Shown here piece by piece: positions 22,880 to 39,114 of a DNA stretch of 64,000 bases. The DNA is taken from the NCBI RefSeq assembly GCF_003574655.1, contig NZ_QNUM01000006.1:248001-312000 (forward strand), written 5' to 3'. Made by a program: the position numbers and the translations under genes. Below the pieces are notes generated by a model. The model was given only the letters and a program-made list of their open reading frames with translations. It did no database searches and was not told the origin of the DNA. This DNA comes from Cohaesibacter haloalkalitolerans (GTDB lineage: Bacteria; Pseudomonadota; Alphaproteobacteria; Rhizobiales; Cohaesibacteraceae). The number at the start of each line of letters is the position of its first letter. Within the stretch, counting starts at the first letter, position 1.

Positions 22880-23566
22880 TCAGGTTTTCGGCCTAACCGA
22901 AGAGATGACACAGTCCACGATGTGGTCACGCAGGGCGATCTGCCCCTCTTCGGTGAACAGGTCGTTGCCGAAGATGTTGGAAAAGGTCGCCCGGTTTGAG
23001 ACATTGAAAAAGGACAGGGCACTGATCTCCCAGTGCAGCTCGAGAGGTGAAAGGCCCGCCCGGAAGACGCCGTCCTTCTCTCCCGCAGCACAGATTCGGC
23101 TGAGCTGTTTGATGACTTTTGTGTTGGTCATGTGCAGTGACGAGCTTTGCCGCATGTATTGTCCGTTTAGGATATTCTCGTTCATGACGAGGCGGATGAA
23201 ATCCTCATTGCGCCGATGGTGATCGAAGGTGAATTCTACAAGTTTTACAAGAGCATCAAGTGGAGGAAGGCCATCAAGATTGAGCTCTTCCTCAGCCTCG
23301 CGGACGCTTCGGTAGGCCTCTTCCAGCACTGCGCGATAAAGCCCTTCCTTGTCGCCGAAATAATAGAAGATCATGCGGCGTGACGTCTGGATCCTGTCGG
23401 CAATATCCTTGACGCGCGTACCTGCCAGACCGTTCTTGGCGAACTCTGACGTCGCTTCGCGCAGGATATCGGCGCGGACGGCTTCGGGATCCTGCTTCCA
23501 CGAGCGGATGCGATTCTGCGTTTGGTGCGCTGTGTCTGCCATGGTCTTTTTCAGCTTCGACTTCAT
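22880..23566 (-). CDS. TetR-family transcriptional regulator of the quinate/shikimate locus
   Basis: Regulator of about 228 aa. The N-terminal TetR helix-turn-helix is clear (GTRVKDIADRIQTSRRMIFYYFGDKEGLYRAV, split over residues about 44-75). The C-terminal ligand domain has HRRNEDFIRLVMNENILNGQYMR. It is divergent from the shikimate/quinate dehydrogenase and TRAP genes, so it probably controls them in response to an aromatic or hydroaromatic acid. The start is uncertain (23566, 23542 or 23599 are all possible and none has a strong ribosome site). A dyad at 23664-23689 in the divergent promoter is a candidate operator, and a related half-site precedes quiC. Confidence 0.88.
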   Translation of the reverse strand: MKSKLKKTMADTAHQTQNRIRSWKQDPEAVRADILREATSEFAKNGLAGTRVKDIADRIQTSRRMIFYYFGDKEGLYRAVLEEAYRSVREAEEELNLDGLPPLDALVKLVEFTFDHHRRNEDFIRLVMNENILNGQYMRQSSSLHMTNTKVIKQLSRICAAGEKDGVFRAGLSPLELHWEISALSFFNVSNRATFSNIFGNDLFTEEGQIALRDHIVDCVISSVRPKT

Positions 23567-23663
23567 CGTTTGGTCGCTAACTATTGTTGATCTCGTCAAA
23601 AATGTCCACCCGTCCGGCTGTCAACTAAAGGGGGGTTGACGAAATTATCCGCTTGGAACAAAG

Positions 23664-23733: not shown

Positions 23734-24627
23734 ATGATGCAAGGCAAACACACCGCCGTCATTCCGGAGCGCGTCAATATCGGGCTGATCGGTTGTGGTA
23801 TAGGCAAGTCTCGAACCCCGGCCATGCACATGGCAGAGGCGAAGGCGCAGGGGTTTGACTGCGACTACAGTCTGCTCGACATGGATGACGAGAGCCGTGC
23901 CGGTCTCTCTCTGGCCAACATGCTCGACCTTGTCGAGAAAGCTGGCTTTGCCGGTGTGAACGTGACCTATCCCTACAAGATGAAGGTCATATCTCATCTC
24001 GACGAGCTTTCAGACAACGCCCGCATGGTGGGAGCGGTCAACACCGTGGTGTTCAGGGATGGCAAGCGCATAGGCCACAACACCGATCTTTGGGGGTTTT
24101 CCGAAAGCTTCCGTCGCGGTCTGGTCGGGGCAAACTGGGATGACGTGCTGTTGATCGGTGCCGGTGGCGCCGGAGTTGCAGTCGCCCATGCACTGGTACA
24201 ATGTGGTGTAAAGACCCTGTCCATCCACGACATGGATCTTGGCAGGGCGGATGATCTGGTGGATCATCTCAAAAGGACGTGGCCGGATATGAACGCCCAT
24301 GCGGTGGCTTCCCTGGACGGGCTGTTTTCTTCAAAGCGCCCTGATGGTGTGGTCAATGCCACCCCGATGGGCATGGCCAAGCTGCCCGGATCGGCTATGC
24401 CGGTCGACTATCTGAATGACCAGATGTGGGTGGCCGATATTGTTTATTTTCCGCTGGAAACCCAGCTTCTCAAGGACGCGCGTGCCTGCGGTTGCCGCAC
24501 ACTGCCCGGGTCGGGAATGGCTGTTTTCCAGGCAGTGCGCGCCTTTGAACTTTTCACGGGCCTGCCCGCAGATCCCGCAAGGATGAAGGAGACGTTCGAT
24601 ACGTTTGATTTAATACCGAGCAATTGA
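23734..24627 (+). CDS. Shikimate/quinate dehydrogenase family protein (AroE-like)
   Basis: NAD(P)-dependent dehydrogenase of 297 aa, predicted to oxidise quinate to 3-dehydroquinate and/or shikimate to 3-dehydroshikimate. Substrate and catalytic residues are visible: GKSRTPAMH (about 24-32), NVTYPYK (76-82, catalytic Lys82) and GHNTDLWG (114-121, Asp118). The nucleotide loop is IGAGGAGVAVAHAL. The KSRTP form is typical of catabolic quinate/shikimate dehydrogenases, while biosynthetic AroE usually has SxSPxxHN. It leads an operon with a TRAP transporter and is divergent from TetR; quiC lies 9 kb downstream. A strong ribosome site (GGGAGG) precedes the double ATG. Confidence 0.88.
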   Translation: MMQGKHTAVIPERVNIGLIGCGIGKSRTPAMHMAEAKAQGFDCDYSLLDMDDESRAGLSLANMLDLVEKAGFAGVNVTYPYKMKVISHLDELSDNARMVGAVNTVVFRDGKRIGHNTDLWGFSESFRRGLVGANWDDVLLIGAGGAGVAVAHALVQCGVKTLSIHDMDLGRADDLVDHLKRTWPDMNAHAVASLDGLFSSKRPDGVVNATPMGMAKLPGSAMPVDYLNDQMWVADIVYFPLETQLLKDARACGCRTLPGSGMAVFQAVRAFELFTGLPADPARMKETFDTFDLIPSN

Positions 24628-24657: not shown

Positions 24658-25668
24658 ATGACGTTCAAAATTGGAAGGAAGCTTGTTACTGCTGCTGTGA
24701 TCTCACTTGGTCTGGCATCCGTCGCAAGCGCACAAACAATACGCCTGGCTCACGTAGATCCTGATGAATGGACAGCCTCGAAGAAGGGTGCAGCTGCGCA
24801 TATTTTCAAGAATATCGTTGAAGGCGAAACAGGCCTCAAGGTCGAACTGTTCCCGGCCGGATCGCTGGGCAACGAGACCGAACTGGTCGGACAGGCTCAG
24901 GAAAACCTCACGCAGGTGGTTCTGGTTTCCGGTGCGATGTCCAAGATCTGCCCGGCGGCAGGTGTTCTGGACATTCCCTACACCTTCTCGTCGGCACCCG
25001 TCGCCTGGACCGTTCTGGACGGCGAATTCGGCAAGGCTCTGGCTGAGCATTGTCTCGAAAAGACCGGCCTTCGCACGCTTGCCTATGGCGAAACCGGCTT
25101 CCGCAACTTCACCAACGGCACCCGCGAAATTCGCAAGCCTGAGGACATGAAGGGCCTGAAATTCCGAGTCCAGCCAATTCCGCTCTATGTGGAAATGGTC
25201 AAGGGCCTTGGTGGCGAACCGACCCCGATTGCCTGGACGGAACTGCCAAACGCCCTGTCGACCGGTGTGGTTGACGGACAGGAAAACCCGGTTGGCGTGA
25301 TCTATAACAACGGTCTGCACAAGCTGCAGAAATACATGACCCTTGATGGCCACGTCTATGGGGCAGACTTCATTCTGATTTCCGATGAATTCTACCAGAG
25401 CCTCAGCCCTGCAGAACAGCAGGTCGTGACCAAGGCTGCCAAGGTTGCAGGCACCATGGGCCGCGCGATCCAGCAGTGGGGCACCGCCGAGGGCGTCAAC
25501 AAGGTGCAGCAGGAAGGCATGCAGGTCTATTCGCCGACCGCTGAAGAAATCGCTGCCTTTGCCGCCAAGGCTCAGCCAGCCGTTGTCGACTATCTGCGCA
25601 AGGAACTCGGCTCGGATGCCGAGTGGATCGATCGCCTCCAGAAGGCGGTTGATGAAGCATCCAAATAG
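24658..25668 (+). CDS. dctP: TRAP transporter substrate-binding protein (DctP), quinate/shikimate locus
   Basis: Periplasmic receptor of 336 aa with a signal peptide ending near ASA (residues 21-24). The binding-Arg segment is LKFRVQPIPLYVEM near residue 165, and the family motif VVDGQENP follows near residue 205. The ligand is inferred to be quinate, shikimate or a dehydro-derivative from the upstream dehydrogenase and downstream quiC. A GC-rich hairpin with a U-tract directly after the gene probably attenuates read-through into the permease genes, giving more receptor than permease. The ribosome site GGGAGGAG lies before the ATG. Confidence 0.92.
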   Translation: MTFKIGRKLVTAAVISLGLASVASAQTIRLAHVDPDEWTASKKGAAAHIFKNIVEGETGLKVELFPAGSLGNETELVGQAQENLTQVVLVSGAMSKICPAAGVLDIPYTFSSAPVAWTVLDGEFGKALAEHCLEKTGLRTLAYGETGFRNFTNGTREIRKPEDMKGLKFRVQPIPLYVEMVKGLGGEPTPIAWTELPNALSTGVVDGQENPVGVIYNNGLHKLQKYMTLDGHVYGADFILISDEFYQSLSPAEQQVVTKAAKVAGTMGRAIQQWGTAEGVNKVQQEGMQVYSPTAEEIAAFAAKAQPAVVDYLRKELGSDAEWIDRLQKAVDEASK

Positions 25669-25683
25669 GTAACTTTCCAGGTT

Positions 25684-25716
25684 GCCGGAGGTGGGGCCCC
25701 CTGCCTCCGGCCTTTT
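25684..25716 (+). terminator. Intra-operon attenuator after dctP
   Basis: Arms GCCGGAGG (25684-25691) and CCTCCGGC (25704-25711) are followed by C and TTTT. It sits between the receptor and small permease genes of one TRAP operon, where partial termination would adjust stoichiometry. Confidence 0.7.
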
Positions 25717-25756
25717 GTCCCAAAACAACAAGGCCAATAAGCAAGGAATACCTGTT

Positions 25757-26332
25757 ATGGATAGACTAAGCCGTTTCGCGCGCCGCATTTTCGCATTAGG
25801 CGCGGGGAGTTCAATGGCGCTCGTGTTTCTCGTTATCTTTGTCAATTCCGTCCGGCGCTATACGATAGGCAAGTCCATCGCCTGGGGTGAAGAGCTGCCG
25901 ATCTATCTGACAATCTATGGCGTCATGTTCGGAATCGCCTACGCCTACATGACCGACAGTCACATCCGCTTCGCCGTTTTCCTTGATATGCTGGAAGAGA
26001 AGATCAAGAGATTCGTGCTCATCGCCTGCGATCTGCTGACGGCGGCGACCGGTGTGACGCTGATTTTTGCAGGCCATGCCTTTGCCATGCGGCGAGGCAG
26101 TGTCGCCAGCTCTGGTCTGAAATCAACCGGCGACTGGCTGGCTCAGATCACCGGTATTCCGTGGCTTGAGTGGGTCGGCAAAGTCGGCACCTGGCAATAT
26201 GCGATCGTCCTTGGCGGGGCGATGCTCGCCATAGCAGCCATTTTGAGATTATCAGAACGCCTGTCCGCTCCGTCGAAGGCGAAGGAGCCCGTGGCACCGC
26301 TTGCTGCCCCGGCCGGAAAGGCTTCAACATGA
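25757..26332 (+). CDS. dctQ: TRAP transporter small permease (DctQ), quinate/shikimate locus
   Basis: Four-helix membrane subunit of about 191 aa. The helix 1 region is SSMALVFLVIFVNSVRRYTIG and the conserved WGEELPIYLTIYGVMFG follows. The start at 25757 (MDRLSRFARR) is chosen because AAGGA lies 9 nt upstream and homology starts there; the open frame to 25682 runs through the attenuator hairpin. The stop codon overlaps the start of dctM (ATGA at 26329). It pairs with the large permease to import the ligand of the preceding receptor. Confidence 0.9.
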   Translation: MDRLSRFARRIFALGAGSSMALVFLVIFVNSVRRYTIGKSIAWGEELPIYLTIYGVMFGIAYAYMTDSHIRFAVFLDMLEEKIKRFVLIACDLLTAATGVTLIFAGHAFAMRRGSVASSGLKSTGDWLAQITGIPWLEWVGKVGTWQYAIVLGGAMLAIAAILRLSERLSAPSKAKEPVAPLAAPAGKAST

Positions 26333-27603
26333 TCTACGCCATTTTTGTCGCCGGTCTGATGATCGGCCTGCCCATCGCCATCACCATTCTGGGCACGCTG
26401 CTGCTCTTCATGGCGATGAATGATGCGCCCTATACAATCCGGATCGTTGCAACCGAGATGTTCCGTGGCATCAACTCGTTCCCGCTGCTCGCCATTCCCC
26501 TGTTCGTGCTGGCAGGTGAAGTGATGAACGAAAGCGGTATCACCGGGCGGATCATTGCCTTTGCCAATGTTCTTGTCGGGCGCATGCGGGCTGGTCTGGC
26601 GCTGGTCAATATCTGGGCCTCGGTCATTTTCGCGGGATTGTCCGGCTCGGCGGTTGCCGACACCTCGGCGATTGGCCGCGTTTTCATTCCCGAGATGGAA
26701 AAGAACGGCTACAGCCGCGACTTTGCCGCCGCCATTACCGCAGCATCCTCGGTCATCGGGCCGATCATTCCCCCCTCGATTCCCGTTATCATCTATGCCC
26801 TGATTGTGTCCGGTGTTTCCGTCCCGGCGCTGTTTCTGGGTGGCATCGGCCCCGGCGTCCTGCTGGCCATTTTCCTGTCCATCTATGTGATGGCGACGGT
26901 GAAGAACGACACCGGATCGAAGTCTCTGGACATTGTCGAGGTTTCGCCGACCAAGGCGCTGCTGGGCGGCATCCTGCCCTTGCTGATGCCGGTGTTTGTG
27001 GTTGGCTCAATCCTGATGGGGGTCGTGACCCCCACGGAAGCGGCGTCCTTTGCCGTTGCCTATGCGCTGTTTCTGGGCGTGTTCGTTTATCACAACATCC
27101 CGTTTTCTGCCCTGCCTCGCATTTTCACGCGGGCGATGAAGGACAGCTCGGTCATTCTGGTGATCATCGCGGCCGTCAGCGCGGCAAACTGGCTTCTGAC
27201 CTATAACCGGGTGCCCAACACACTGACCGACTGGGTTCTGTCCAACGTCGATGGCAAGGTCGCCTTCCTCATTGCGATCAACTTCCTGTTCCTGTTTGTG
27301 GGGCTGTTTCTGGAAGGCACCGCAGCGATGCTGGTGCTGGTGCCGATTGTTCATCCGATTGCCGTGTCCCTTGGTGTGGATCCGACCCATTTCGGTATTG
27401 TCGTCATCTTCAACCTGATGATCGGGCTGATCACTCCGCCACTGGGGCTTTGCCTGTTCGTCGCCGAGGCCATAGCGAAGGTCGGGATGGTCAAGCTGAC
27501 GCGAGCGATCCTGCCGCTGTTCCTGGTCGAGGTTGTGGTGCTGTTCATCATCACCTTTGTGCCGCAAACCGTTACAACCCTGCCGCGGCTGTTCGGTTTC
27601 TAG
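26329..27603 (+). CDS. dctM: TRAP transporter large permease (DctM), quinate/shikimate locus
   Basis: Twelve-helix-class translocation subunit, 424 aa. Family motifs include PLFVLAGEVMNESGITGR near residue 60, GLSGSAVADTSAIG near residue 103 and IGPIIPPSIPVIIYAL near residue 142. The end of the protein has FNLMIGLITPPLGLCLFV. The start at 26329 overlaps the dctQ stop; upstream in-frame codons lie inside dctQ. Transcription ends at a terminator at 27647-27676 placed inside the 3' end of the convergent LysR gene. Confidence 0.93.
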   Translation: MIYAIFVAGLMIGLPIAITILGTLLLFMAMNDAPYTIRIVATEMFRGINSFPLLAIPLFVLAGEVMNESGITGRIIAFANVLVGRMRAGLALVNIWASVIFAGLSGSAVADTSAIGRVFIPEMEKNGYSRDFAAAITAASSVIGPIIPPSIPVIIYALIVSGVSVPALFLGGIGPGVLLAIFLSIYVMATVKNDTGSKSLDIVEVSPTKALLGGILPLLMPVFVVGSILMGVVTPTEAASFAVAYALFLGVFVYHNIPFSALPRIFTRAMKDSSVILVIIAAVSAANWLLTYNRVPNTLTDWVLSNVDGKVAFLIAINFLFLFVGLFLEGTAAMLVLVPIVHPIAVSLGVDPTHFGIVVIFNLMIGLITPPLGLCLFVAEAIAKVGMVKLTRAILPLFLVEVVVLFIITFVPQTVTTLPRLFGF

Positions 27604-27634: not shown

Positions 27635-28555
27635 TCAATAGGGAGAAAGCCGCTTGCGCTCTGCAGCGGCTTTTTTCATTTCCCCGATGAGACACTTGAC
27701 CATCGCATCGGCAAAGATCGAACGCGGCTGGTCTGCGCTGAAAACCGCATAGGTGCGGAAACTGGTTGGTTCTGCAAGGCGGCGCACGATGATGCTGGGG
27801 TGCTGCTGCGGACCGGCCAGTGACAGCTCGTCCATGATCGCAACTCCAAGCCCCTGTGCCACGAGAGTGGAGACGGTCTGTCCTGTACGTGCCACGATGG
27901 AGTAGGAAACATCGAGACCGGCCTCGACAAAGGGGGCCATCAGCAGCTTGCCATAGGGGTCGGAAGGCTCGATTCCTACCAATCGCTCTCTTGCCAGATC
28001 ACGGACCGAAAGGTTTTCCTTGTCCCCCAAGGGGTGATTGGCCGGAAGAATCGCGAATAGCTGGCCGCTGTAGAGCGGCTGCACCGAGAGGCCCGGATGG
28101 TCGAGCTTGTAGCTCATGGCCACCAGTTCCCCTTTTTGCAGCAGCAGATAATCGATGGCTTCCTCGATCTTGATGGTGTTGAGGTGCAATTCGAGGCCGG
28201 GGAACTGTTCATGCAGTGCCCGCACGGCACTTGGCAGCACATGGTGGGCGATGGACGGAACGGCGCCGAAGGAGACGCACCGTTTCTCGCCCCGCTTGAG
28301 ACCATCAATGGCCTGATGCAGATTCTCGACGGCATGAAACACCGAGGCAATCTGCTCGAAGATGTCACGGGCCTCCTCGGTTGGTGTGTAGCGACCATAA
28401 ATTCGAGAAAACAGGCGGATACCGAGCTGGTCCTCGGTGTATTTCATCACCCGGCTGATCCCCGGTGCCGAGACGTTGAGCAGCTCGGCCGCCCCTTTGA
28501 CCGTTCCGGCCACCATGATGGCGCGAATGACTTCAATCTGGCGCAGGGTCAGCAT
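27635..28555 (-). CDS. LysR-family transcriptional regulator
   Basis: Regulator of 306 aa. The N-terminal winged HTH is clear (LRQIEVIRAIMVAGTVKGAAELLNVS, about residues 4-29) and is followed by the LysR substrate-binding domain (GAVPSIAHHVLPSAVRAL near residue 98). It is divergent from the HMG-CoA-lyase-like gene, so it probably activates the 28711-33721 catabolic operon with a pathway intermediate as inducer. The last residues (KKAAAERKRLSPY) are encoded by the same DNA that forms the terminator of the convergent TRAP operon. Confidence 0.92.
   Translation of the reverse strand: MLTLRQIEVIRAIMVAGTVKGAAELLNVSAPGISRVMKYTEDQLGIRLFSRIYGRYTPTEEARDIFEQIASVFHAVENLHQAIDGLKRGEKRCVSFGAVPSIAHHVLPSAVRALHEQFPGLELHLNTIKIEEAIDYLLLQKGELVAMSYKLDHPGLSVQPLYSGQLFAILPANHPLGDKENLSVRDLARERLVGIEPSDPYGKLLMAPFVEAGLDVSYSIVARTGQTVSTLVAQGLGVAIMDELSLAGPQQHPSIIVRRLAEPTSFRTYAVFSADQPRSIFADAMVKCLIGEMKKAAAERKRLSPY
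27647..27676. terminator. Bidirectional terminator overlapping the 3' end of the LysR gene
   Basis: Arms AAGCCGCT (27647-27654) and AGCGGCTT (27665-27672) with a 10-nt loop, followed by TTTT on the plus strand. It terminates the TRAP operon ending at 27603 and is translated as part of the LysR C-terminus. A second small dyad, ATCGCAT/ATGCGAT, lies just before it at 27611-27633. Confidence 0.8.
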
Positions 28556-28641: not shown

Positions 28642-28710
28642 TGAAGAGACAAGGTCTCGAATCCGGCCCAAAACCGGCAAAGAGAGCAGATGCCAACGGG
28701 GAGGGGAGGC

Positions 28711-29640
28711 ATGTTTGCGTTCGACGGAAGTGTTCTGATCGAAGACGAATTCCTGCGCGATGGCTTGCAGAACGAAAAGCGTCTGTTTTCTGTCGAAGAG
28801 AAGCTTGCGTTCCTCACCGATCTGGAAGCTGCCGGCGTCAGACGCATTCAGGTCGGTTCCTTCGTACACCCCAAATGGGTGCCGCAGATGGCCAACACGG
28901 ACGAGCTGTTTACGCGCCTTGAGCCCAGGGACGGCGTAACCTACACAGCACTCGTACTCAACGGAGCCGGCCTTGAGCGGGCTCTGGCTGTCGGGGTGAA
29001 GCATCTTTCCATATCCGTGTCAGCATCAGAGACCCATTCGCAGAAAAACACCAATCGATCCGTTGATGAAGGCCGCGCCGCAATCAGGCCGGTGATCGAG
29101 AAGGCCCTCAGCGAAGGCGTCATGGTGCGGGCCGGTATCCAGTCAGCGCTCGGCTGTGGCTTTGAGGGCCATATCGATCCTGATCGCGTATGCGAGATAG
29201 CACGCGATTTTGCCGCCTTGGGTGTGCAGGAAATCAACATCGCTGACACCGCCGGACTGTCGAACCCGCAGGCGGTCTATGCGCTCTGCAAACGCCTGCG
29301 CGAAGAGATTGCCGATGATGTCGCCCTGTCGCTGCATCTGCACGACACGCGCGGGCTCGGTATCGCCAATTTTGTCGCCGGTCTTCAGGCCGGAGTGCGG
29401 ATTTTCGATGCGGCCGTTGGGGGGCTCGGGGGATGTCCTTTCGTGCCCAAGGCCACAGGCAACATCGCGACTGAAGACGTGGCTTTCGCCTGCACTGAAA
29501 TGGGCATCGAAACCGGAATCGACTGGCAGATGCTCAAGGCCCCCGTCGAGCGGGCAGAAGCCATCCTGGAGCGGACGCTCCCGGGCCGCATGGCCCACAT
29601 GCCACCACCACCCTGGGCACAACTCTCGGAGGACAAGTGA
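28711..29640 (+). CDS. Hydroxymethylglutaryl-CoA lyase-like protein (HMGL/DRE-TIM family)
   Basis: DRE-TIM metallolyase of about 309 aa. Visible family residues are EFLRDGLQNE at the N-terminus (Arg and Asp of the active site), SVSASETHSQKN near residue 110, the metal-binding LHLHDTRG near residue 210 and the loop GGLGGCPFVPKATGNIATED with Cys242, the HMG-CoA lyase signature cysteine. It should cleave a 3-hydroxy-3-substituted acyl-CoA by retro-Claisen/aldol chemistry. The start at 28711 follows GGGGAGG; 28690 is also possible. It heads a four-gene operon with an isomerase, acylating ALDH and ThDP enzyme, so its true substrate is probably not leucine-derived HMG-CoA. Confidence 0.85.
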   Translation: MFAFDGSVLIEDEFLRDGLQNEKRLFSVEEKLAFLTDLEAAGVRRIQVGSFVHPKWVPQMANTDELFTRLEPRDGVTYTALVLNGAGLERALAVGVKHLSISVSASETHSQKNTNRSVDEGRAAIRPVIEKALSEGVMVRAGIQSALGCGFEGHIDPDRVCEIARDFAALGVQEINIADTAGLSNPQAVYALCKRLREEIADDVALSLHLHDTRGLGIANFVAGLQAGVRIFDAAVGGLGGCPFVPKATGNIATEDVAFACTEMGIETGIDWQMLKAPVERAEAILERTLPGRMAHMPPPPWAQLSEDK

Positions 29641-30485
29641 TGCGTGACTATTCCCTGGCCTATTTGACGGTTCCGGGCGTGACCCCGCCCGAACAGGTCG
29701 AAATTGCAGCAAAGGCAGGCTTCAGCCATGCCAGTTTCCGCCTGATACATCTCGGCGTCGCCGGCGAACCGGACATCAACCCGACCGATCCGGCCATCAT
29801 CAGGGCCACGAAGAAGGCGATGCAGGAGACCGGCATCCGCTGTATCGACGTGGAACTGGCCAAGATCCATCGCGATATCGACCCGGACAGCTTCCTGCCA
29901 GCCTTCGAGGCAGGGGCCGAGCTGGGGGCCACCCAGGTCATCTGCTCCGCATGGACCGACGTGCGTAACGACCGCGGCTATATCGTCGAGCAGTTCTCGC
30001 GCATCTGCTCCTTGGCCGAACCATTCGGGCTGACAATCAATCTTGAGTTTCCCGCCTTCTCGCGTTTGGCAACGCTGGACGAATGCGTGGAAATTCTGGA
30101 GCTGGCGGGCTGTCCCAATCAGGGGCTGCTGGTCGATACGCTCTATATGCATTTCAACAAGTGCCCGCTGTTTGCGCTGGAGCGCGTGCCCAGCGAGTGG
30201 ATCAATTTCCTCCATGTCTGCGATGCCGATGATGTCGCCTACACCAAGGACGAAATGATCCGCATTGCCCGCGACGCCCGCCTCTATCCGGGGGAAGGGG
30301 CCATTGATTTTTCCGTCATCAATTATCTGTTCCCAGACCTGCCGCTGTCCATCGAATTGCCCAATGCGGAGCGTTCGGCCAGCCTTGGTCATGAACAGCA
30401 TGCGCGTAACTGCCTCGAAGCGGCCAAGGCGGTCTTCGAGGGCGGCTCGCAGTTCGTCGATCAGCAGAACGGGTTGGCAGGCTGA
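29640..30485 (+). CDS. Sugar phosphate isomerase/epimerase family protein (xylose isomerase-like TIM barrel)
   Basis: AP endonuclease 2-like TIM barrel of 281 aa. Likely metal ligands include Glu in NLEFPAFSRL near residue 137, Asp in LLVDTLYMHF and HVCDADDV, and Glu in LSIELPNAE near residue 240. Family members are isomerases, epimerases or dehydratases of sugars and keto acids such as hydroxypyruvate. It overlaps the HMGL-like stop codon (TGATG) with GGAGG just upstream, so translation is coupled. The context suggests it interconverts a hydroxy-keto intermediate made or used by the lyase and ThDP enzyme. The substrate is unknown. Confidence 0.8.
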   Translation: MRDYSLAYLTVPGVTPPEQVEIAAKAGFSHASFRLIHLGVAGEPDINPTDPAIIRATKKAMQETGIRCIDVELAKIHRDIDPDSFLPAFEAGAELGATQVICSAWTDVRNDRGYIVEQFSRICSLAEPFGLTINLEFPAFSRLATLDECVEILELAGCPNQGLLVDTLYMHFNKCPLFALERVPSEWINFLHVCDADDVAYTKDEMIRIARDARLYPGEGAIDFSVINYLFPDLPLSIELPNAERSASLGHEQHARNCLEAAKAVFEGGSQFVDQQNGLAG

Positions 30486-30518
30486 CAGGCCGGTGAACAT
30501 ATTTTAGGGAGAGGAAAT

Positions 30519-31925
30519 ATGGCACGAGACATAACCGAACAGGAAAAGCAGACGGTCGCCGAGATGATTGCCCGCGCTCGCGTGGCGATGGAAGAGATCA
30601 AGGACTATGATCAGGCGCAGGTTGATCGTCTGGCTCAGGCACTGGGCTGGAACTGTGGCAACGAAAAGACCTTTGTCCGCATTGCTCAGATGGGGGTTGA
30701 TGAAAGCGGCATCGGCGATCGCGCTGGACGCGCGGGCAAACGCTTCAAGATCCTCGGTGTGCTGCGCGATGCGTTGCGCCAGAAATCCGTGGGCGTCATC
30801 GAGGTGGACGAAGCCAAGGGCATTACCAAGATCGCCAAACCGGCAGGTGTGATCGCCTCGCTCATTCCTACCACCAACCCCGAGCTGACTCCGCCGGTGA
30901 CCGGCATCTATGCCATCAAATGCAAGAATGCGGTGATCTTCTCGCCCCATCCGCGCGCAAAGAAGACCACCGCAGAGATGGTTCGCGTCATGCGCGAGAC
31001 CTGCAAGAAGCTTGGCGCTCCGGCCGATCTGTTCCAGTGCGTCGAAGAGCCCTCCATCCCGATGACCAACGAGCTTATGGCCGAATGTGACGTGACCTTT
31101 GCCACGGGCGGCAAGCCGATGGTGAAGGCGGCCTATTCCTCCGGCAAACCGGCCTACGGTGTGGGGGCGGGCAACTCCACCATGGTGATCGACGAGACCG
31201 CCGATATAGAAATTGCCGCCATGAACAGCCGCATCTCTAAGACCTCGGACTTCGGCTCAGGATGCTCGGCCGATGGCAACCTGGTCATTGCGGAACAGAT
31301 CTACGACGACATGAAAGCAGCCCTCATCAAGGAAGGCGGCTATCTGTGCAATGCCGAGGAAAAGGCAAAGATCCAGAATGCTCTCTGGACCGAGGAGGGA
31401 GGCCGTAGGGTCGAGACCGTAGCCATTTCCGCCCAGCGCATCGCCGAATTTGCCGGTTTCGAAATCCCTCAGGACCGCAAGTTCATCATGGTCGAACAGG
31501 AAGAAATCGGCAAGGAGCACAAATTCTCCGGCGAGAAGCTCTGTGTTGTCATGGCGCTCTACAAGTTCAAGGACTTCGACGAAGCCATGGCCAAGATTCG
31601 CGCCATCTATGAAGTCGGCGGCAAGGGCCATTCCTGCGGCATCTATTCCAACGATGACGACCGCATTCTTCAGCATGCGATGAATGCGCCGGTCAGCCGG
31701 GTCATGGTTCGCCAGCCGCAATCCAAGGCCAATGCGGGTAGCTTCGAAAACGGTATGCCGATGACGAGCTCCCTTGGCTGTGGCATCTGGGGCGGCAACA
31801 TCACCAACGAGAATGTCTCGCTGAAGCATTACATGAATGTCACCTGGGTCGCCCGCCCGATTCCGGCGGATCGTCCATCCGATGAAGAGCTGTTTGGCGA
31901 ATTCTACAACACGGAGACGATGTGA
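30519..31925 (+). CDS. Acylating aldehyde dehydrogenase, resembling sulfoacetaldehyde dehydrogenase (SauS-like)
   Basis: CoA-acylating aldehyde dehydrogenase of 468 aa. The N-terminal region (VGVIEVDEAKGITKIAKPAG) and the catalytic motif FGSGCSADGN (Cys249) match the SauS/EutE-like branch. The conserved TTNPELTPPVTGIYAIK contains the nucleotide-binding segment. It would convert an aldehyde, CoA and NAD(P)+ into an acyl-CoA. The closest named family I recognise is sulfoacetaldehyde dehydrogenase, but no sulfonate genes (xsc, sauT, sulfite exporter) are nearby, so the aldehyde is more likely the product of the ThDP enzyme encoded next. It is in the same operon; the stop codon overlaps the next start. 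Confidence 0.82.
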   Translation: MARDITEQEKQTVAEMIARARVAMEEIKDYDQAQVDRLAQALGWNCGNEKTFVRIAQMGVDESGIGDRAGRAGKRFKILGVLRDALRQKSVGVIEVDEAKGITKIAKPAGVIASLIPTTNPELTPPVTGIYAIKCKNAVIFSPHPRAKKTTAEMVRVMRETCKKLGAPADLFQCVEEPSIPMTNELMAECDVTFATGGKPMVKAAYSSGKPAYGVGAGNSTMVIDETADIEIAAMNSRISKTSDFGSGCSADGNLVIAEQIYDDMKAALIKEGGYLCNAEEKAKIQNALWTEEGGRRVETVAISAQRIAEFAGFEIPQDRKFIMVEQEEIGKEHKFSGEKLCVVMALYKFKDFDEAMAKIRAIYEVGGKGHSCGIYSNDDDRILQHAMNAPVSRVMVRQPQSKANAGSFENGMPMTSSLGCGIWGGNITNENVSLKHYMNVTWVARPIPADRPSDEELFGEFYNTETM

Positions 31926-33721
31926 TGAACGAGAACTCCGTTCCCAACAAGGAAAAGACCGTCGCGAGTCAACTGGTGGGCTATCTCGAAGCCCGAGGCG
32001 TTGCGCATGTCTTCGGCCTTTGCGGCCACACCAACATTGCGGTCCTAGCGGCTCTGGCTGACTCCAGCATCGAGTTCGTGACTGTGCGCCACGAACAGAT
32101 CAGTGCCCATGCCGCGGATGGCTACGCCCGTGTGACGGGCAAGGCCTCGGTTGTGCTGTCCCACCTGTCCCCCGGTCTGACCAACGCGGCCACCGGCGTG
32201 GCCAATGCCGCGCTCGACTGCACGCCGATGGTGGTGATTGCCGGCGACATCCCCAGTTACTATTACGGCAAGCACCCCCATCAGGAGGTCAACCTGCATG
32301 CCGATGGCGCGCAGTATGAAATCTATCGGCCCTTCGTGAAACGGGCCTGGCGTGTCGATACGCCGGAGCTTTTCCCCGAGATCATGGAGAAGGCCTTTGC
32401 GCTCGCCGAGAGCGGCCAGCCCGGCCCGGTTCTGGTCAACGTGCCGATGGACTTTTTCTCCGCAGAAATCGATCCGGCGCTCTGGCAGCGTCAGATCTCC
32501 AACACCAAGGCCCTCATCAAGCCGTCGATCGATGACGAAACGGCACGGGCCATCATCGAGCGGCTTGTCTCCGCCAAGAACCCGGTCATCTATGCCGGTG
32601 GCGGCGTCGCGCTTTCCCGCGCCTTTGACGAGCTGCGCGAACTGGTCGATCATCTTGATCTGCCGGTTGCCTATTCGTTGATGGGCAAGGGAGCCCTGCC
32701 GGACGATCATCCGCTGGTGCTCGGCATGACCGGCTTCTGGGGCACGCCGCTGACCAATCAGACCACGCTCAATGCCGACTGGGTTCTGGGGCTTGGCACG
32801 CGCTTCAAGGAAGCCGACTGCTCTTCCTGGTATCCCGAATTCACCTTCAATATCGGCGAAGGGGCGACAAAGCTCATTCACATCGATATCGAGCCGCAGG
32901 AAATCGGCCGCAACTATCCCACTGAGATCGGGGCCGTTGCCGACCTGAAATCCGCTTTGAAGGTATTGGTCCGCGTCGCAAGAGAGATGAAACCGGAAGG
33001 CATCGACCGTCCGGCGTTGCGCAAGACCATAGCAGACTTCCGGGCTGACTTTGCTGAATCCAATCGCGAAATGCAGCAATCCGATGCCTTCCCGATGATG
33101 CCGGAACGCATTCTGGCCGATCTGAGAGATGTGATGCCTGCCGATGCCATTCTCACCTCCGATGTGGGCTGGAACAAGAACGGCGTTGCCCAGCAATTTG
33201 ACATTCTGACGCCGGGCACGGCACTCATTCCGGGCGGCTTTGCCACCATGGGCTTTGGCCCGCCTGCCGCCATAGGCGCCAAGATCGCAGCGCCAGACAA
33301 GGTCGTTATCAGTCTAGTAGGCGATGGCGGCTTCGGCCAGAACCCTGCCGTGCTGGCCACTGCGGCGGAAATGAACCTGCCGGTCATCTGGGTTGTCATG
33401 AACAACAACGCCTTCGGCACTATCGCGGGGCTGCAACTGGCGCATTATGGTCTCAACTACGGCACGCTGTTTCCGAAGGCGAACTCGCCCGTCGACCAAT
33501 TGCCGGATTATGCCGCCGTCGCTCGTGCCTATGGCTGCGAAGGGGTACGCATCAAGACCGCTGCCGAGTTCAAGCCAGCCCTTGAAGCAGCCATTGCAAG
33601 CGGTCGCCCGACCGTCCTTGATGTGGCTATGATCAACAACCCGACCCCGACATCGGGTCACTGGAACATTCTCGACATCTATTCACCGCAAGGTGGCGTC
33701 GGGCACGTGGCAACCCACTGA
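31925..33721 (+). CDS. Thiamine diphosphate-dependent enzyme (acetolactate synthase / decarboxylase superfamily)
   Basis: ThDP enzyme of 598 aa with the three-domain PYR-central-PP layout. The activating glutamate is Glu57 in VRHEQISAHAADGYAR. The ThDP/Mg motif starts GDGGF (466-470) and runs to NNNAFGTI. Glyoxylate carboligase replaces the glutamate with Val, so this is not Gcl despite the similar length. The likely role is decarboxylation or carboligation of a 2-oxo acid, giving an aldehyde for the acylating dehydrogenase encoded just upstream. The start overlaps the dehydrogenase stop (TGATG), and the operon ends at a strong terminator at 33738-33781. Confidence 0.85.
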   Translation: MNENSVPNKEKTVASQLVGYLEARGVAHVFGLCGHTNIAVLAALADSSIEFVTVRHEQISAHAADGYARVTGKASVVLSHLSPGLTNAATGVANAALDCTPMVVIAGDIPSYYYGKHPHQEVNLHADGAQYEIYRPFVKRAWRVDTPELFPEIMEKAFALAESGQPGPVLVNVPMDFFSAEIDPALWQRQISNTKALIKPSIDDETARAIIERLVSAKNPVIYAGGGVALSRAFDELRELVDHLDLPVAYSLMGKGALPDDHPLVLGMTGFWGTPLTNQTTLNADWVLGLGTRFKEADCSSWYPEFTFNIGEGATKLIHIDIEPQEIGRNYPTEIGAVADLKSALKVLVRVAREMKPEGIDRPALRKTIADFRADFAESNREMQQSDAFPMMPERILADLRDVMPADAILTSDVGWNKNGVAQQFDILTPGTALIPGGFATMGFGPPAAIGAKIAAPDKVVISLVGDGGFGQNPAVLATAAEMNLPVIWVVMNNNAFGTIAGLQLAHYGLNYGTLFPKANSPVDQLPDYAAVARAYGCEGVRIKTAAEFKPALEAAIASGRPTVLDVAMINNPTPTSGHWNILDIYSPQGGVGHVATH

Positions 33722-33860: not shown

Positions 33861-33893
33861 TATCTGTTGTTGCAACAGCTTGGGAGGGCTGCC

Positions 33894-35786
33894 ATGAAAA
33901 CATCGATTTCGACCGTCTCCATCGCCGGAGATCTCAGCGAGAAGCTGACCGCCATCGCGGCAGCCGGTTTTAACGGGATCGAAATTTTCGAGCAGGATTT
34001 CATCACTTTCGACGGTTCCCCCGAGACAGTCGGCAAGATGGTGCGGGATCATGGCCTGACCATTGATCTGTTGCAGCCGATGCGGGATTTCGAAGGCTTT
34101 TCCGGCCAGGCCCGGGTGCGAGCCTTCGACCGCGCCGAACGCAAGTTTGACCTGATGGAACAGCTTGGAACCGACCTTCTGCTGGTCAGCTCTTCCGACC
34201 ATCCCGAAGCGCTGGGGGGGATCGAACAGATCGCCGAGGATTTCCGCGAGTTGGGGGAGCGGGCTGCAAAGCGTGGCTTACGCATCGGCTACGAGGCCCG
34301 CGCCTGGGGCAAGGTCATTTCGGACTATCGTGACGCATGGGAAGTGGTGCGCATGGCCGGGCATGACTCGGTCGGCATCATTCTGGACAGCTTCCACATT
34401 CTCGCTCGCAACAATCCGCTCAATGCCATCCGCTCCATTCCGGGGCAGCGTATTTTCCATGTCCAGCTGGCCGACGCTCCGAAGATCGAGATGAATCTCG
34501 AATACTGGTCGCGCCATTTCCGCACCATGCCGGGCGAGGGGGAGCTGGACCTGCTGTCCTTCATGTCGGCGGTCGCGGCCACCGGCTACAAGGGGCCGAT
34601 AGCCCTTGAAATCCTCAACGACCAGTTCCGCAGTGGCCGACCGCGCGCCATTGCCGTGGACGGCCAGCGTTCGCTGCTCAACCTGATGGACAAGGTGCGC
34701 CATGCCGAGCCGCATCTGGCGCTCAATGTGCCCAAGATGCCGGCCCGCGAGCCGATCCGTGGCGTGGAGTTCGTTGAATTTGCGGCCAGTGACAAGGATG
34801 CTGGCAATCTGGCCACCATGCTGTCGGCACTGGGCTTTGTTGCCACTGCCAAACACATTGCCCGCGACGTCACGCTTTGGCAGCAGGGAGACATCAAACT
34901 GGTGGTCAACACCAGCAAGGAAGGCTTTGCACATTCCGCCTATGTCATGCATGGCCTGTCCGTGTGCGATATCGGCCTGCTGGTCGATGATGCATCGGCA
35001 GCAGCAGAACGCGCCCGCATTCTCGGTGCCAGTCCCTTCATGCAGAAGCGGCTCGTTGGCGAGCTGAACATTCCTGCCGTGCGCGGCGTTGGCGGCTCGG
35101 TGCTGCATCTGCTGGATCGCTCCAGTCCGCTGGCCAAGGTCTGGGCGGTGGAGTTTGAGCCATTGGAGCAGAATATCGACATTTCCGGTGTCGGGCTGAC
35201 GACGATCGACCATGTGGCGCAGGTGGTCAATGACGAGGACATGCAGACATGGACCCTGTTCTATGAGTCCATTTTTGCCCTCGACAAGACCCCGCTGGTC
35301 GATGTGTCGGATCCGAGCGGCTTTGTCCATAGCCGTGCGATCCAGAGTTCCGACGGTGCCTTCCGGCTGACCATGAATGGTGTGCAGACCCACCGTACAT
35401 TCGCAGGCCGCTTTGTTGCCGACAGCTCGGGCTCCTCCGTGCAGCATCTGGCCTTTGGCACGGCAGACCTTCTGGCAACCGCCGCCCGGTTGAAAGAGCG
35501 CGGTTTCGAGCCTTTGCCGATTTCAGAGAATTACTATGGCGATCTGGCGACCCGCTTCGATCTCGATGATGCCTTCCTCAAACAGTTGAGCCAGGCCAAT
35601 GTCTTTTATGACGAAGACGAAAACGGCGCCTATCTACAGCTCTACAGTCGCCCCTATGGCGATGGCTTCTTCTTCGAGATCGTCGAGCGGCGGGGCAACT
35701 ATCACAAATATGGTGCCCCGAATGCTGCCTACCGTACCGCCGCGCTCAAGCGGCTTTCGCGCCCGACCGGCATTCCGCGCAAGTAG
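33894..35786 (+). CDS. quiC: 3-dehydroshikimate dehydratase (TIM barrel - HPPD-like fusion)
   Basis: Converts 3-dehydroshikimate to protocatechuate, joining the hydroaromatic (quinate/shikimate) pathway to aromatic ring cleavage. The 630-aa two-domain build is that of bacterial QuiC1-type enzymes: a sugar-isomerase-like TIM barrel (about 1-290, starting KTSISTVSIAGDLSEKL, with YEARAW near residue 136) and a 4-hydroxyphenylpyruvate-dioxygenase-like VOC region (about 295-630, with TTIDHVAQVV and GYGDGFFFEIVERRG-type ends). Catalysis resides in the TIM barrel in known homologues. The start follows GGGAGG by 6 nt. It is transcribed as a single gene between two strong terminators, with a palindromic operator. 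Confidence 0.93.
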   Translation: MKTSISTVSIAGDLSEKLTAIAAAGFNGIEIFEQDFITFDGSPETVGKMVRDHGLTIDLLQPMRDFEGFSGQARVRAFDRAERKFDLMEQLGTDLLLVSSSDHPEALGGIEQIAEDFRELGERAAKRGLRIGYEARAWGKVISDYRDAWEVVRMAGHDSVGIILDSFHILARNNPLNAIRSIPGQRIFHVQLADAPKIEMNLEYWSRHFRTMPGEGELDLLSFMSAVAATGYKGPIALEILNDQFRSGRPRAIAVDGQRSLLNLMDKVRHAEPHLALNVPKMPAREPIRGVEFVEFAASDKDAGNLATMLSALGFVATAKHIARDVTLWQQGDIKLVVNTSKEGFAHSAYVMHGLSVCDIGLLVDDASAAAERARILGASPFMQKRLVGELNIPAVRGVGGSVLHLLDRSSPLAKVWAVEFEPLEQNIDISGVGLTTIDHVAQVVNDEDMQTWTLFYESIFALDKTPLVDVSDPSGFVHSRAIQSSDGAFRLTMNGVQTHRTFAGRFVADSSGSSVQHLAFGTADLLATAARLKERGFEPLPISENYYGDLATRFDLDDAFLKQLSQANVFYDEDENGAYLQLYSRPYGDGFFFEIVERRGNYHKYGAPNAAYRTAALKRLSRPTGIPRK

Positions 35787-35947: not shown

Positions 35948-36913
35948 TCAGGCAAATCTGTAAAGCTTTGCCGGGTTGTCGACGAGAATCTTCTGGCGCA
36001 AGGCCGGATCAGCAGCCCAGACTTTCAACTGGTTGAAAACGCGCCCGTCATCGACATCGAACAACGGGGTGAGATCATGCGCCGTGCCACCGGCGGGAGC
36101 CTTGGCATTGGGGTGCGGCCAGTTCGATCCCCAAAGAATGTGGTCCGAATTGGCGGCAATCAGTTTCTCGGCCAGAGGATCGAAGACGGAGAGATTGTCT
36201 CTGTGCCCGCCCTTGATGGAGATCTTGACATAGGCCTTGCCCTTTGCCACCAGATCGACCATCGCGCCGAAGCCTGCCGGTTCGCTTTTGCCATCGGGTT
36301 GTGCGCCGCCGTAGTGGTCGAACACCACCATCTTGGGCAGAGTCCCGAGATAGTCATGCAGTGCTTCGATCATGGCCGGGTTGGTGTTGAGCTGCAGGTG
36401 CCAGTCCAGATCCGCGATCTGGCCAAGGGCGGCCTCGATCATGGCCTTCGCACGGTCCGGATCGTTGACCCCGCCAACCGACAGATTGAGGCGCACACCG
36501 CGGATGCCTATGGCATCCATTTCCGTCAGCTCGCGTTTGGTCGTCTCGTTATCGATGACGGCGACGCCACGGGCAGACCGGCCGAAATGCATCATGCCGA
36601 ACATGGTCGCAGCATTGTTGGCGCCATAGACACTGGGGGTCACAATGACCACCCGGTCAAGCCCGAGAGCCTTCATCATGGCTTCCAGCTCGTCCGGAGA
36701 GGCTTCTTCCGGGGTATAGGAGCGCTTTTCAAACATTGGGAAGGCTGTCTGCGATCCATGGATATGGACATGGCAATCGCAGGCCCCCTTTGGCATGTCG
36801 AATGCAAGTGTGGTCGAAGGCTGGGATGGCTTGGCCTCCGCCCCCCTTGCCAGGAAGGTGGCTCCGAGCCCGAGGCTGGCTGCCGTGATGGCAAATTGGC
36901 GTCTATTGATCAT
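35948..36913 (-). CDS. Periplasmic amidohydrolase-superfamily lactonase (2-pyrone-4,6-dicarboxylate hydrolase-like) with Tat-type signal
   Basis: Predicted 321-aa hydrolase of the Amidohydrolase_2/LigI branch. Residues 1-27 form a signal with a twin-arginine-like NRRQFAI followed by a hydrophobic stretch and AEA, suggesting Tat export. The catalytic domain begins CDCHVHIHG (His48, His50) and has VVFDHYGG near residue 187 and HILWGSNWPHPN near residue 255. LigI-type enzymes hydrolyse the lactone 2-pyrone-4,6-dicarboxylate and are cytosolic, so an exported form would open a lactone before uptake. The start at 36913 is chosen because the signal begins there and GGAGGAGAGAG precedes it. It is a single gene, convergent with quiC. 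Confidence 0.82.
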   Translation of the reverse strand: MINRRQFAITAASLGLGATFLARGAEAKPSQPSTTLAFDMPKGACDCHVHIHGSQTAFPMFEKRSYTPEEASPDELEAMMKALGLDRVVIVTPSVYGANNAATMFGMMHFGRSARGVAVIDNETTKRELTEMDAIGIRGVRLNLSVGGVNDPDRAKAMIEAALGQIADLDWHLQLNTNPAMIEALHDYLGTLPKMVVFDHYGGAQPDGKSEPAGFGAMVDLVAKGKAYVKISIKGGHRDNLSVFDPLAEKLIAANSDHILWGSNWPHPNAKAPAGGTAHDLTPLFDVDDGRVFNQLKVWAADPALRQKILVDNPAKLYRFA

Positions 36914-37425
36914 TCTCTCTCCTCCTTTTTCGAGAAATCGCGGGATTCCGAATTCTGGGCCAACGAGCAAGCTGGTTTACGCTGGCATGGAAACCGGAAA
37001 ACCGGGAAGTGTTTGTCGGCTGATGGCAAGTCTCCTCCGACCTGTCTGGATAGCTCAGCGACAGTCGATCTTAAAGGTATACCAAAATGGTATAATTATG
37101 ATTTGATGACTCACAAAAATTGAAAAATCAATATAAATGTACTCTAAAAATAGACTATAGACTCAAAATGTATACTTTAATGAAAAAGATCTGCGGTCGA
37201 AACGTTTCAGGCCCGACATCACGCATGGCCAATTGATTCTGAAAGTTGCAAGGGGATTGCGGCGCAATTGGATCTGGGATTCTCGTCTGATAGGGCGATT
37301 GAGTCGATGAAGCGCACGGGAGCCATGCAAGAAGAGTGAGGGATTGGCATTGACAATCGCGCGAACAATATCATATATGCGCACTATAATATAACACACT
37401 TACTATCTGGGAGTATCCGGTCGCT
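36914..37425. other. Divergent intergenic region between the lactonase and marR genes
   Basis: A 512-bp AT-rich region with no convincing gene. It holds the palindrome at 37076-37094, another GTATAC core at 37170-37175, and AT-rich alternating sequence (CATATATGCGCACTATAATATA) just before marR that may be its promoter/operator. Confidence 0.5.
37076..37094. promoter_or_regulatory. Palindromic operator candidate upstream of the lactonase gene
   Basis: GGTATACC followed by AAAATGGTATA. The outer dyad is TATACC-AAAAT-GGTATA (37078-37094), perfect 6-bp arms. It lies about 165 bp upstream of the lactonase start. A similar sequence, ATACCAAAAATGGATAC, overlaps the start of the 53128 dehydrogenase gene, which has a divergent GntR regulator. 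Confidence 0.5.
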
Positions 37426-37890
37426 ATGGACAAGAAGGAGGCTGAAGATCACGTGGGCTATCTGCTGTTTGACGTGTCTCGCCAATTCCGCAAACGATAT
37501 GAAGAGCAATCAAAGAACATCGGTCTGACGCTTCAGCAGTCCCGTGTCATTGGTTATCTTTTCCATCACCCCGACGGCCTCTCCCAGGCCACGCTGGCTG
37601 CCGCTGTGGACAGCGATCCGATGACAATCAGCGGCATATTGGACCGCCTCGAAAAGCGCGGTCTTGTTCAACGGGTTCAGGACCCATCCGACAGCCGCGC
37701 CAAGCTGGTGACGCTTCTGCCTGACGGCTGTGAGCATTTCAAGGCGGCGCGCTGCATCAGCCGAAAGCTGTTTGACGAGGTGCTCGACGACCTTGAAACC
37801 GGACATCGGGAGATCCTGATCAGCAGCCTCAAGCATATTCGAGACCGGTTGGTTGACGCGTCTCAAGAGAACAAGGAAACACAGGAATGA
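37426..37890 (+). CDS. MarR-family transcriptional regulator of the efflux operon
   Basis: Winged-helix regulator of 154 aa. The recognition region is GLSQATLAAAVDSDPMTISGILDRLEKRGLVQRV (split over residues about 49-82), with the wing DPSDSRAKLVTLLPDG. It is the first gene of an operon with a membrane-fusion protein and an MFS pump, and its stop overlaps the next start. The role is autoregulated control of efflux, released by a toxic ligand, as in EmrR/MprA. The extent of the regulon is inferred. Confidence 0.92.
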   Translation: MDKKEAEDHVGYLLFDVSRQFRKRYEEQSKNIGLTLQQSRVIGYLFHHPDGLSQATLAAAVDSDPMTISGILDRLEKRGLVQRVQDPSDSRAKLVTLLPDGCEHFKAARCISRKLFDEVLDDLETGHREILISSLKHIRDRLVDASQENKETQE

Positions 37891-39056: not shown

Positions 39057-39064
39057 GCCGAACC

Positions 39065-39100
39065 GATGAACCGGACGTATCCTGATGCGTCCGGTTCATC
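39065..39100 (+). repeat. Perfect 13-bp inverted repeat between emrA and emrB
   Basis: GATGAACCGGACG (39065-39077) and CGTCCGGTTCATC (39088-39100) around a 10-nt loop, ending 14 bp before the emrB start codon. No U-tract follows. The hairpin would sit directly upstream of the emrB ribosome site (AGGAAA), so it may control emrB translation or mRNA processing. Confidence 0.8.
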
Positions 39101-39114
39101 GCAGGAAACATCAC

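Follow-up and report, generated by a model that had tools for sequence, protein, structure and literature searches.

Introduction

Plants are rich in the acids quinate and shikimate, and the textbook breakdown of both in bacteria proceeds via protocatechuate and requires O2. According to reports going back decades and attributed to Brune and Schink, some anaerobes break down hydroaromatic acids by routes free of aromatic intermediates; we know of no gene set for such an anaerobic route. A described pathway of similar logic is myo-inositol catabolism, for which the roles of IolE, IolD and IolA are set out in PMC9430895. In the present study, we analyzed a 64,000-nt stretch of the genome of Cohaesibacter haloalkalitolerans (contig NZ_QNUM01000006.1, positions 248,001–312,000; hereafter the window), which carries four adjacent genes for a lyase, a triosephosphate isomerase (TIM) barrel protein, an aldehyde dehydrogenase (ALDH) and a thiamine diphosphate (ThDP) enzyme. 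An AroE-type dehydrogenase and a tripartite ATP-independent periplasmic (TRAP) transporter are encoded upstream and a QuiC1-like dehydratase directly downstream, which bears out the quinate/shikimate setting proposed in a preliminary description of the locus. On balance, we consider it probable that these genes specify, in the whole of the scheme set out below, an O2-independent breakdown of quinate that avoids aromatic compounds and follows the logic of myo-inositol catabolism.

A search of the literature found nothing on homocitryl-CoA together with quinate, on citryl-CoA lyase together with dehydroquinate, or on this route, within a coverage that excluded most subscription journals and all preprints; an earlier description elsewhere is therefore possible. 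Since all the proteins belong to known superfamilies and the inositol logic is itself known, the novelty would lie in the pathway as a whole.

Four coupled genes

All four genes lie on the plus strand. The first (28690..29640) encodes a lyase of the 3-hydroxy-3-methylglutaryl-CoA (HMG-CoA) lyase type (HMGL; PF00682/PRK05692), a predicted homocitryl-CoA lyase. The second (29637..30485) encodes an AP_endonuc_2 TIM barrel (PF01261), a predicted 3-dehydroquinate dehydratase with IolE-like chemistry. The third (30519..31925) specifies a SauS-like, CoA-acylating ALDH (PF00171), and the fourth (31922..33721) a ThDP enzyme with TPP_enzyme N, M and C domains and a GH motif, a predicted cyclic 1,2-dione hydrolase. 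Stop and start codons overlap by 4 nt at the HMGL/TIM (29637–29640) and ALDH/ThDP (31922–31925) junctions, and a 33-nt gap separates the TIM and ALDH genes. The same four open reading frames (ORFs) and both overlaps had been given in the preliminary description; the HMGL start proposed there (28711) is an internal in-frame ATG of a real ORF, which can begin at position 28690. The overlaps, together with the recurrence of the core in related loci, make it nearly certain that the four genes constitute one coupled catabolic module, as had been suggested.

The HMGL protein exceeds the cut-off of PRK05692 (307 vs 246 bits), and its stretches RDGLQNE, HxHDT, GLGGCP (with the cysteine) and GNxATED are in register with solved HMG-CoA lyases; we take the RDGLQ, HxHD, GLGGCP and GN motifs to be catalytic. 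The nearest solved relatives of the ALDH are acetylating ALDHs, AdhE and CoA-acylating succinate-semialdehyde dehydrogenase, with the cysteine in register. The ThDP protein contains three TPP_enzyme domains and the best 25 of its 54 matching models all remained below their cut-offs, including acetolactate synthase (403 bits, cut-off 538). Its scores with Xsc (TIGR03457; 291 bits, cut-off 676) and, in a search of the whole genome, with IolD (TIGR04377; 222 bits, cut-off 715) were likewise too low.

A SauS-type ALDH combined with an Xsc-like ThDP enzyme could also indicate a sulfonate pathway, and SauS (NF047625, 480 bits) is indeed the top NCBIfam model of the ALDH, while Xsc models match the ThDP enzyme. 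However, these scores lie below the curated cut-offs (600 for SauS; 620 and 676 for Xsc), and sulfonate catabolism would leave AroE, QuiC and the citryl-CoA lyase described below without a role. No sulfonate gene was recognized among the neighbours scanned, in agreement with the preliminary description. On the basis of the cut-offs and the gene context, this candidate, which we consider extremely improbable, was rejected.

Conservation of the module

The TIM barrel was used to search 249 genomes of the order, 25 of which gave a match at E≤1e-20; such matches were present in 6 of the 8 same-genus genomes listed, the genome under study included. Twenty regions surrounding TIM matches were read (19 of 20 kb and one shorter). 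In six related genomes (L035–L040) the genes for AroE, TRAP, HMGL, TIM, ALDH, ThDP and QuiC occur in the order found in the window, with a LysR gene present in three of them. Two further regions (L041 and L048) carry the AroE, TIM, ALDH and ThDP genes without HMGL, and have a citryl-CoA lyase form of the module. No ThDP or ALDH match was detected by tblastn in the other 12 of the 20 regions; most TIM relatives of 29–34% identity in the order-level search lack the module. Two of these 12 regions (L047 and L052) contain distant TIM relatives (31–33%) with AroE and QuiC matches in the vicinity.

When one genome per species was scanned with a profile, this yielded at least 598 pattern matches, at least 572 of which encode a relative. 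The 80 loci kept are the best-scoring ones (many from Rhodobacteraceae, judging by record title) and not an even sample; contigs ending inside the cluster lower the counts that follow, and weak AroE or QuiC matches may raise them. The ALDH gene was present in 77/80 loci and the TIM gene in 68/80; the ALDH and ThDP genes were adjacent in 76, and TIM, ALDH and ThDP were contiguous on one strand in 63. QuiC-like genes were found in 62/80 loci (57 of these at ≥35% identity over ≥80% of the length), and TRAP or tripartite transporter genes also in 62. AroE was detected in 33 loci (25 at ≥38% identity), Gfo/Idh/MocA oxidoreductases of three clusters (8, 9 and 10) in 45, and one or the other in 63. 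The gene order in the six related genomes and the recurrence of the core in the majority of the 80 loci, which come from a separate collection, indicate that the arrangement is not due to chance. The preliminary description had called for a co-occurrence search of this kind and had held that separate, unrelated contexts for each gene would speak against its reading; the outcome favours a single module.

In a sample of the phylum, the ThDP gene was found at E≤1e-200 in 5 of 398 genomes, including the one under study (at most three candidates were scored per genome). A plasmid search with the TIM barrel returned 152 records, all below 60% identity (30–36% among the 30 listed).

Several loci showed individual peculiarities. 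In Rhodobium orientis the DctM match falls into two adjoining, frameshift-like pieces (L040:11928–13198 and L070). In Bacterium UASB270 (L115:8783–13166) the ALDH extends over two ORFs, and the region upstream of the ThDP gene encodes AroQ and a tripartite transporter; in Aromatoleum toluolicum (L139:5768–7575) the HPPD-like and barrel halves of QuiC are separate adjacent ORFs beside the module. A pair of Gfo/Idh/MocA genes (clusters 8 and 9) was observed beside the module in 29 and 25, respectively, of 84 clustered loci. A protein of approx. 220 residues (cluster 12; 18 loci), the scanned copies of which had no Pfam or NCBIfam match, is part of the same oxidoreductase block, whose sites include L120:7376–10443 and L041:11022–14135, and which occurs even in Desulfofustis. 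This block may feed another cyclitol into the module.

Exchange of the final lyase

The protein that replaces HMGL in L041 and L048 scores above the cut-off for citryl-CoA lyase (NF004864; 429 and 432 bits, cut-off 261) and is a member of the citrate synthase family, which is non-homologous to HMGL. HMGL was found in 21 of the 80 loci, citryl-CoA lyase in 46, both in none and neither in 13. Two citryl-CoA lyase proteins were scanned, those of L041 and L048. Among the 46 loci, L137 is identical with the L048 record, and the remaining 45 were matched to the L048 protein by tblastn alone (59–75% identity). In nine of the 13 loci with neither lyase, the sequence flanking the ThDP gene is short on one or both sides, whereas L074, L108, L115 and L126 lack a lyase match within 10 kb on both sides. 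On the ThDP tree the lyase label needs three changes (3–3 in bootstraps), two of which are forced by well-supported (starred) branches; L072, for example, has citryl-CoA lyase but groups within the clade of HMGL loci to which the window belongs. The HMGL of L128 shares 39% identity with the protein of the window.

Two unrelated folds that are exchanged at one position of a pathway should have substrate chemistry in common, and the acyl-CoA that is cleaved should thus be citryl-like. This evidence, which comes from outside the window, strongly suggests a tertiary 3-hydroxy-3-carboxyacyl-CoA whose cleavage yields acetyl-CoA and a 2-oxo acid. That the lyase acts on a CoA ester of the citryl type is, in our opinion, very probable. 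The replacement also argues against HMG-CoA as the substrate of the HMGL protein, as far as the comparison of sequences can indicate. The last two steps envisaged in the preliminary description (oxidation of an aldehyde to give an acyl-CoA, which the HMGL-like lyase then splits in a retro-Claisen reaction) are supported as a reading, the swap in 46/80 loci providing independent evidence for the latter.

Functional clues from the ThDP enzyme and the TIM barrel

Histidine 36 of the ThDP enzyme (codon 32027..32029, plus strand) is in register with His28 of cyclohexane-1,2-dione hydrolase (CDH). This residue, which follows the second glycine of a GxxG motif, was found in CDH and in all 82 module rows of the alignment (the window, the 80 loci and L162, a duplicate of the L070 record), as well as in 16/16 IolD rows with a letter at this position (the 17th is gapped); among other rows it was present in 3/14. 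In PMC12247030, a CDH variant in which both His28 and N484 were exchanged is described as altered in activity. Structural alignments of the ThDP protein with CDH gave 26–27% identity, and dione hydrolases and carboligases could not be told apart by their folds. When the genome was scanned with the IolD model, the module ThDP gene ranked first (222 bits, the next gene scoring 191). On the ThDP tree, the module, three further GH-type proteins and IolD share one side of a branch with 98/88 support, opposite acetolactate-synthase-like rows (so named from their GYPGGAV motif); since long branches meet in this tree, the placement was given little weight. Another ThDP family of the order (L159, L160 and L161) has the same histidine within a GHG motif and forms the sister group of the module in the tree. 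It possibly includes further dione hydrolases.

The TIM protein matches PF01261 with 54.6 bits (cut-off 31.1). Its residues E137, D167, H193 and E240, presumably metal ligands, are conserved in 44 sequences. No match to IolE (TIGR04379) was obtained at E≤0.001. The closest folds are those of Lmo2234, IolI and QuiC1 (dehydroshikimate dehydratase); the barrel also resembles IolE, among other sugar isomerases. The best Foldseek match is the IolI protein, an inosose isomerase.

In the preliminary description, the route began with an open-chain 2-oxo acid that was isomerized and decarboxylated. This part was not supported; the AroE/QuiC context, the TIM fold and the ThDP histidine appear to fit better with dehydration of 3-dehydroquinate and hydrolytic ring cleavage. 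We regard ring opening, rather than decarboxylation, as likely.

A ring could also be opened if the ThDP enzyme acted as an acyloin lyase directly on 3-dehydroquinate, giving a dialdehyde, with the TIM protein isomerizing the keto group before or after this step. 3-Dehydroquinate is an alpha-hydroxyketone and the IolI match would suit an isomerase, but the second aldehyde would be left without an enzyme, as the recurrent core contains one ALDH alone. We consider this variant very improbable.

Proposed ring-opening pathway

The chemistry of the favoured route, i.e. dehydration followed by hydrolysis of the ring, was derived by hand from general knowledge of structures and mechanisms, and its atoms balance. 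The substrates, products and reactions that we infer are as follows. The TRAP system would import quinate or shikimate, and the AroE/QsuD-type enzyme would convert quinate to 3-dehydroquinate, which bears C3=O, C4-OH, C5-OH and C1(OH)(COOH). The TIM barrel would then take H4 and OH5 off this compound to form 1-hydroxy-3,4-dioxocyclohexane-1-carboxylate (C7H8O5), which is non-aromatic; the same elimination is performed by QuiC/AsbF on 3-dehydroshikimate and by IolE on inosose. The ThDP enzyme would add at C3 and hydrolyse the C3–C4 bond of the dione, to give 2-hydroxy-2-(2-oxoethyl)glutarate (homocitrate semialdehyde; C7H10O6, HOOC-CH2-CH2-C(OH)(COOH)-CH2-CHO). The aldehyde would have to derive from C3, as otherwise the lyase step fails. 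Acylating ALDH would produce homocitryl-CoA, and the HMGL-type lyase, or citryl-CoA lyase in many relatives, would split it into acetyl-CoA and 2-oxoglutarate. In sum, all seven carbons would enter central metabolism with a yield of 2 NAD(P)H and no use of O2 or ATP, and the adjacent QuiC would serve shikimate as a side branch. Because substituent order and geometry at C1 do not change, (1R)-3-dehydroquinate would give R products; homocitrate made by homocitrate synthase also has the R configuration.

A broader proposal is that of a widespread pathway, with or without O2, in which the quinate ring is hydrolysed via the 3,4-dione and homocitryl-CoA, with two exchangeable non-homologous lyases, and which possibly includes shikimate via a reversed 3-dehydroquinate dehydratase. 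We hold this to be marginally more probable than its opposite.

The identity of the substrate

The gene of the AroE/QsuD-type quinate/shikimate dehydrogenase, the proposed entry enzyme (quinate to 3-dehydroquinate), is located at 23734..24627 (plus strand) and was kept in L035–L041 and L048. Its product scores 387 bits with PRK12549 (cut-off 235) and 263 bits, below the cut-off of 515, with the model of quinate/shikimate dehydrogenase (NAD+). The QuiC1-like 3-dehydroshikimate dehydratase (33867..35786, plus strand), composed of a TIM barrel and an HPPD-like domain, matches the solved Pseudomonas QuiC1 (5hmq) near full length (544 bits, residues 9–630), while its score with NF042435 (QuiC; 609 bits) lies below the cut-off of 1200. 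QuiC1 and QsuB are described in PMC7442255 as dehydroshikimate dehydratases with the activity in the N-terminal domain. The presence of AroE and QuiC points to 3-dehydroquinate and 3-dehydroshikimate, and quinate/3-dehydroquinate is, in our assessment, fairly probable as the substrate.

The genome, which is 99.85% complete, gave no match to PF00775 or PcaH (TIGR02422) in searches that detected the controls. Its two LigB-family genes encode 3,4-dihydroxyphenylacetate dioxygenase HpaD (461 bits, cut-off 316) and 4,5-DOPA dioxygenase (296 bits, cut-off 233); in the LigA search no control gave a match. Protocatechuate would thus have no recognizable dioxygenase in this strain, although an unfamiliar one is possible.

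These results bear on the preliminary scheme in its best form, in which the ThDP enzyme decarboxylates 4-carboxy-4-hydroxy-2-oxoadipate, an intermediate of protocatechuate 4,5-cleavage, to citrate semialdehyde, which would be converted via citryl-CoA to acetyl-CoA and oxaloacetate. It accounts for the ALDH, both lyases and the literal name citryl-CoA lyase, the adjacent QuiC should yield protocatechuate, and the ThDP enzyme scores as acetolactate-synthase-like. Nevertheless, it requires a protocatechuate 4,5-dioxygenase, for which the two LigB-family genes do not qualify, and no Lig gene was present in the ten recurrent neighbour clusters with scanned representatives. It also leaves the TIM barrel without a task. 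Moreover, loci of sulfate reducers contain HMGL, ALDH and ThDP but no QuiC within the stretch covered. We consider this scheme quite improbable.

The HMGL, TIM, ALDH and ThDP genes were found in a member of Desulfobulbaceae (L120), and HMGL, ALDH and ThDP in Desulfofustis (L129 and L136), where the short stretches covered gave no TIM match; neither QuiC nor AroE was detected within the stretches covered of these three loci. The PF00775 dioxygenase family was absent from five of six genomes searched (those of L115, L120, L127, L129 and L136; their completeness is not stated), with one match in the genome of L135.

A 3-dehydroquinate dehydratase gene was found in four loci, being of type I in L127 and L134 and of type II in L115 and L062. 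These genes speak for the quinate reading, but less strongly than it might seem. Locus L127, from a deltaproteobacterial metagenome-assembled genome, also has aroB (18686–19660, minus strand; 350 bits, cut-off 305), and the score of its AroE (298 bits, cut-off 252) indicates the biosynthetic type; AroE and AroD of this locus may thus serve aromatic biosynthesis. In L062 the AroQ gene is 7.5 kb from the ThDP gene. The aroB gene of L127 slightly lowered our confidence in the scheme and in its broader form.

The same ring opening and lyase end might instead serve another cyclohexane polyol acid or cyclitol derivative, entering via Gfo/Idh/MocA oxidoreductases, with quinate being incidental. The oxidoreductases of clusters 8, 9 or 10 are indeed more frequent than AroE (45/80 vs 33/80 loci), their scanned representatives match IolG and levoglucosan dehydrogenase models (below cut-off), and the folds resemble those of inositol enzymes. 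We nevertheless find this unlikely, given that AroE is located inside the cluster in the window, L035–L041 and L048, and that QuiC occurs in 62/80 loci.

Surrounding genes in the window

The AroE gene is preceded by a divergent gene for a TetR-type regulator (22880..23599, minus strand; PF00440, PF17938), which was kept in L035–L040. It is followed on the plus strand by the TRAP genes for the solute-binding protein DctP (24658..25668; PF03480, TIGR00787), the small permease DctQ (25682..26332; named from its position and conservation in L035–L040) and the large permease DctM (26329..27603; kept in L035–L040 and in the same ORF cluster as a TIGR00786 dctM of L116), whose start was set at the ATG overlapping DctQ by 4 nt. 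A divergent LysR-type regulator (27635..28555, minus strand; PF00126, PF03466) separates them from the module.

Beside QuiC, an amidohydrolase (35948–36970, minus strand; PF04909) matches a 4-sulfomuconolactone hydrolase model with 146 bits (below the cut-off of 500); it had no tblastn match at that place in L035–L037, though other neighbours were kept. Behind the operon (37426–40635, plus strand), genes for a MarR-like regulator and for an efflux pair of the EmrAB kind were recognized by reading and are kept in L035–L037; protocatechuate or another aromatic acid could be exported by the pair.

Comparison with known systems

The module offers a complete, balanced, gene-by-gene hypothesis for O2-free quinate breakdown. 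If correct, it would extend known enzymology by a homocitryl-CoA lyase and a hydrolase of a carboxylated dione, and labels such as sulfoacetaldehyde dehydrogenase, acetolactate synthase and citryl-CoA lyase would have to be corrected in many Rhodobacteraceae.

The classical quinate/shikimate route (QuiA/QsuD, QuiB, QuiC) shares with the module a similar entry dehydrogenase and the QuiC1-like gene in the operon, but it dehydrates to an aromatic product and needs an O2-dependent ring-cleaving dioxygenase, which is not recognizable in this genome. CDH resembles the module enzyme in the proposed reaction, ThDP dependence and the histidine in register, and differs in its low identity and in feeding 6-oxohexanoate metabolism. 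SauS, the acylating sulfoacetaldehyde dehydrogenase, is the closest curated family of the ALDH, yet its cut-off is not reached. The module lyase has the motifs of HMG-CoA lyase and its substitute belongs to the citryl-CoA lyase family, whereas the proposed substrate is homocitryl-CoA, and the reaction would be the reverse of homocitrate synthase.

In its overall logic, the scheme is similar to myo-inositol catabolism (IolG, IolE, IolD, IolA), with a dehydrogenase, a TIM dehydratase yielding a cyclic 1,2-dione, a ThDP hydrolase and a terminal semialdehyde dehydrogenase, IolA being likewise CoA-acylating. In contrast to inositol catabolism, the ThDP and TIM proteins of the module fall outside the IolD and IolE families, the predicted ring is carboxylated, IolB, IolC and phosphorylation have no counterpart, and carbon would leave the route via a citryl/HMG-type CoA lyase.

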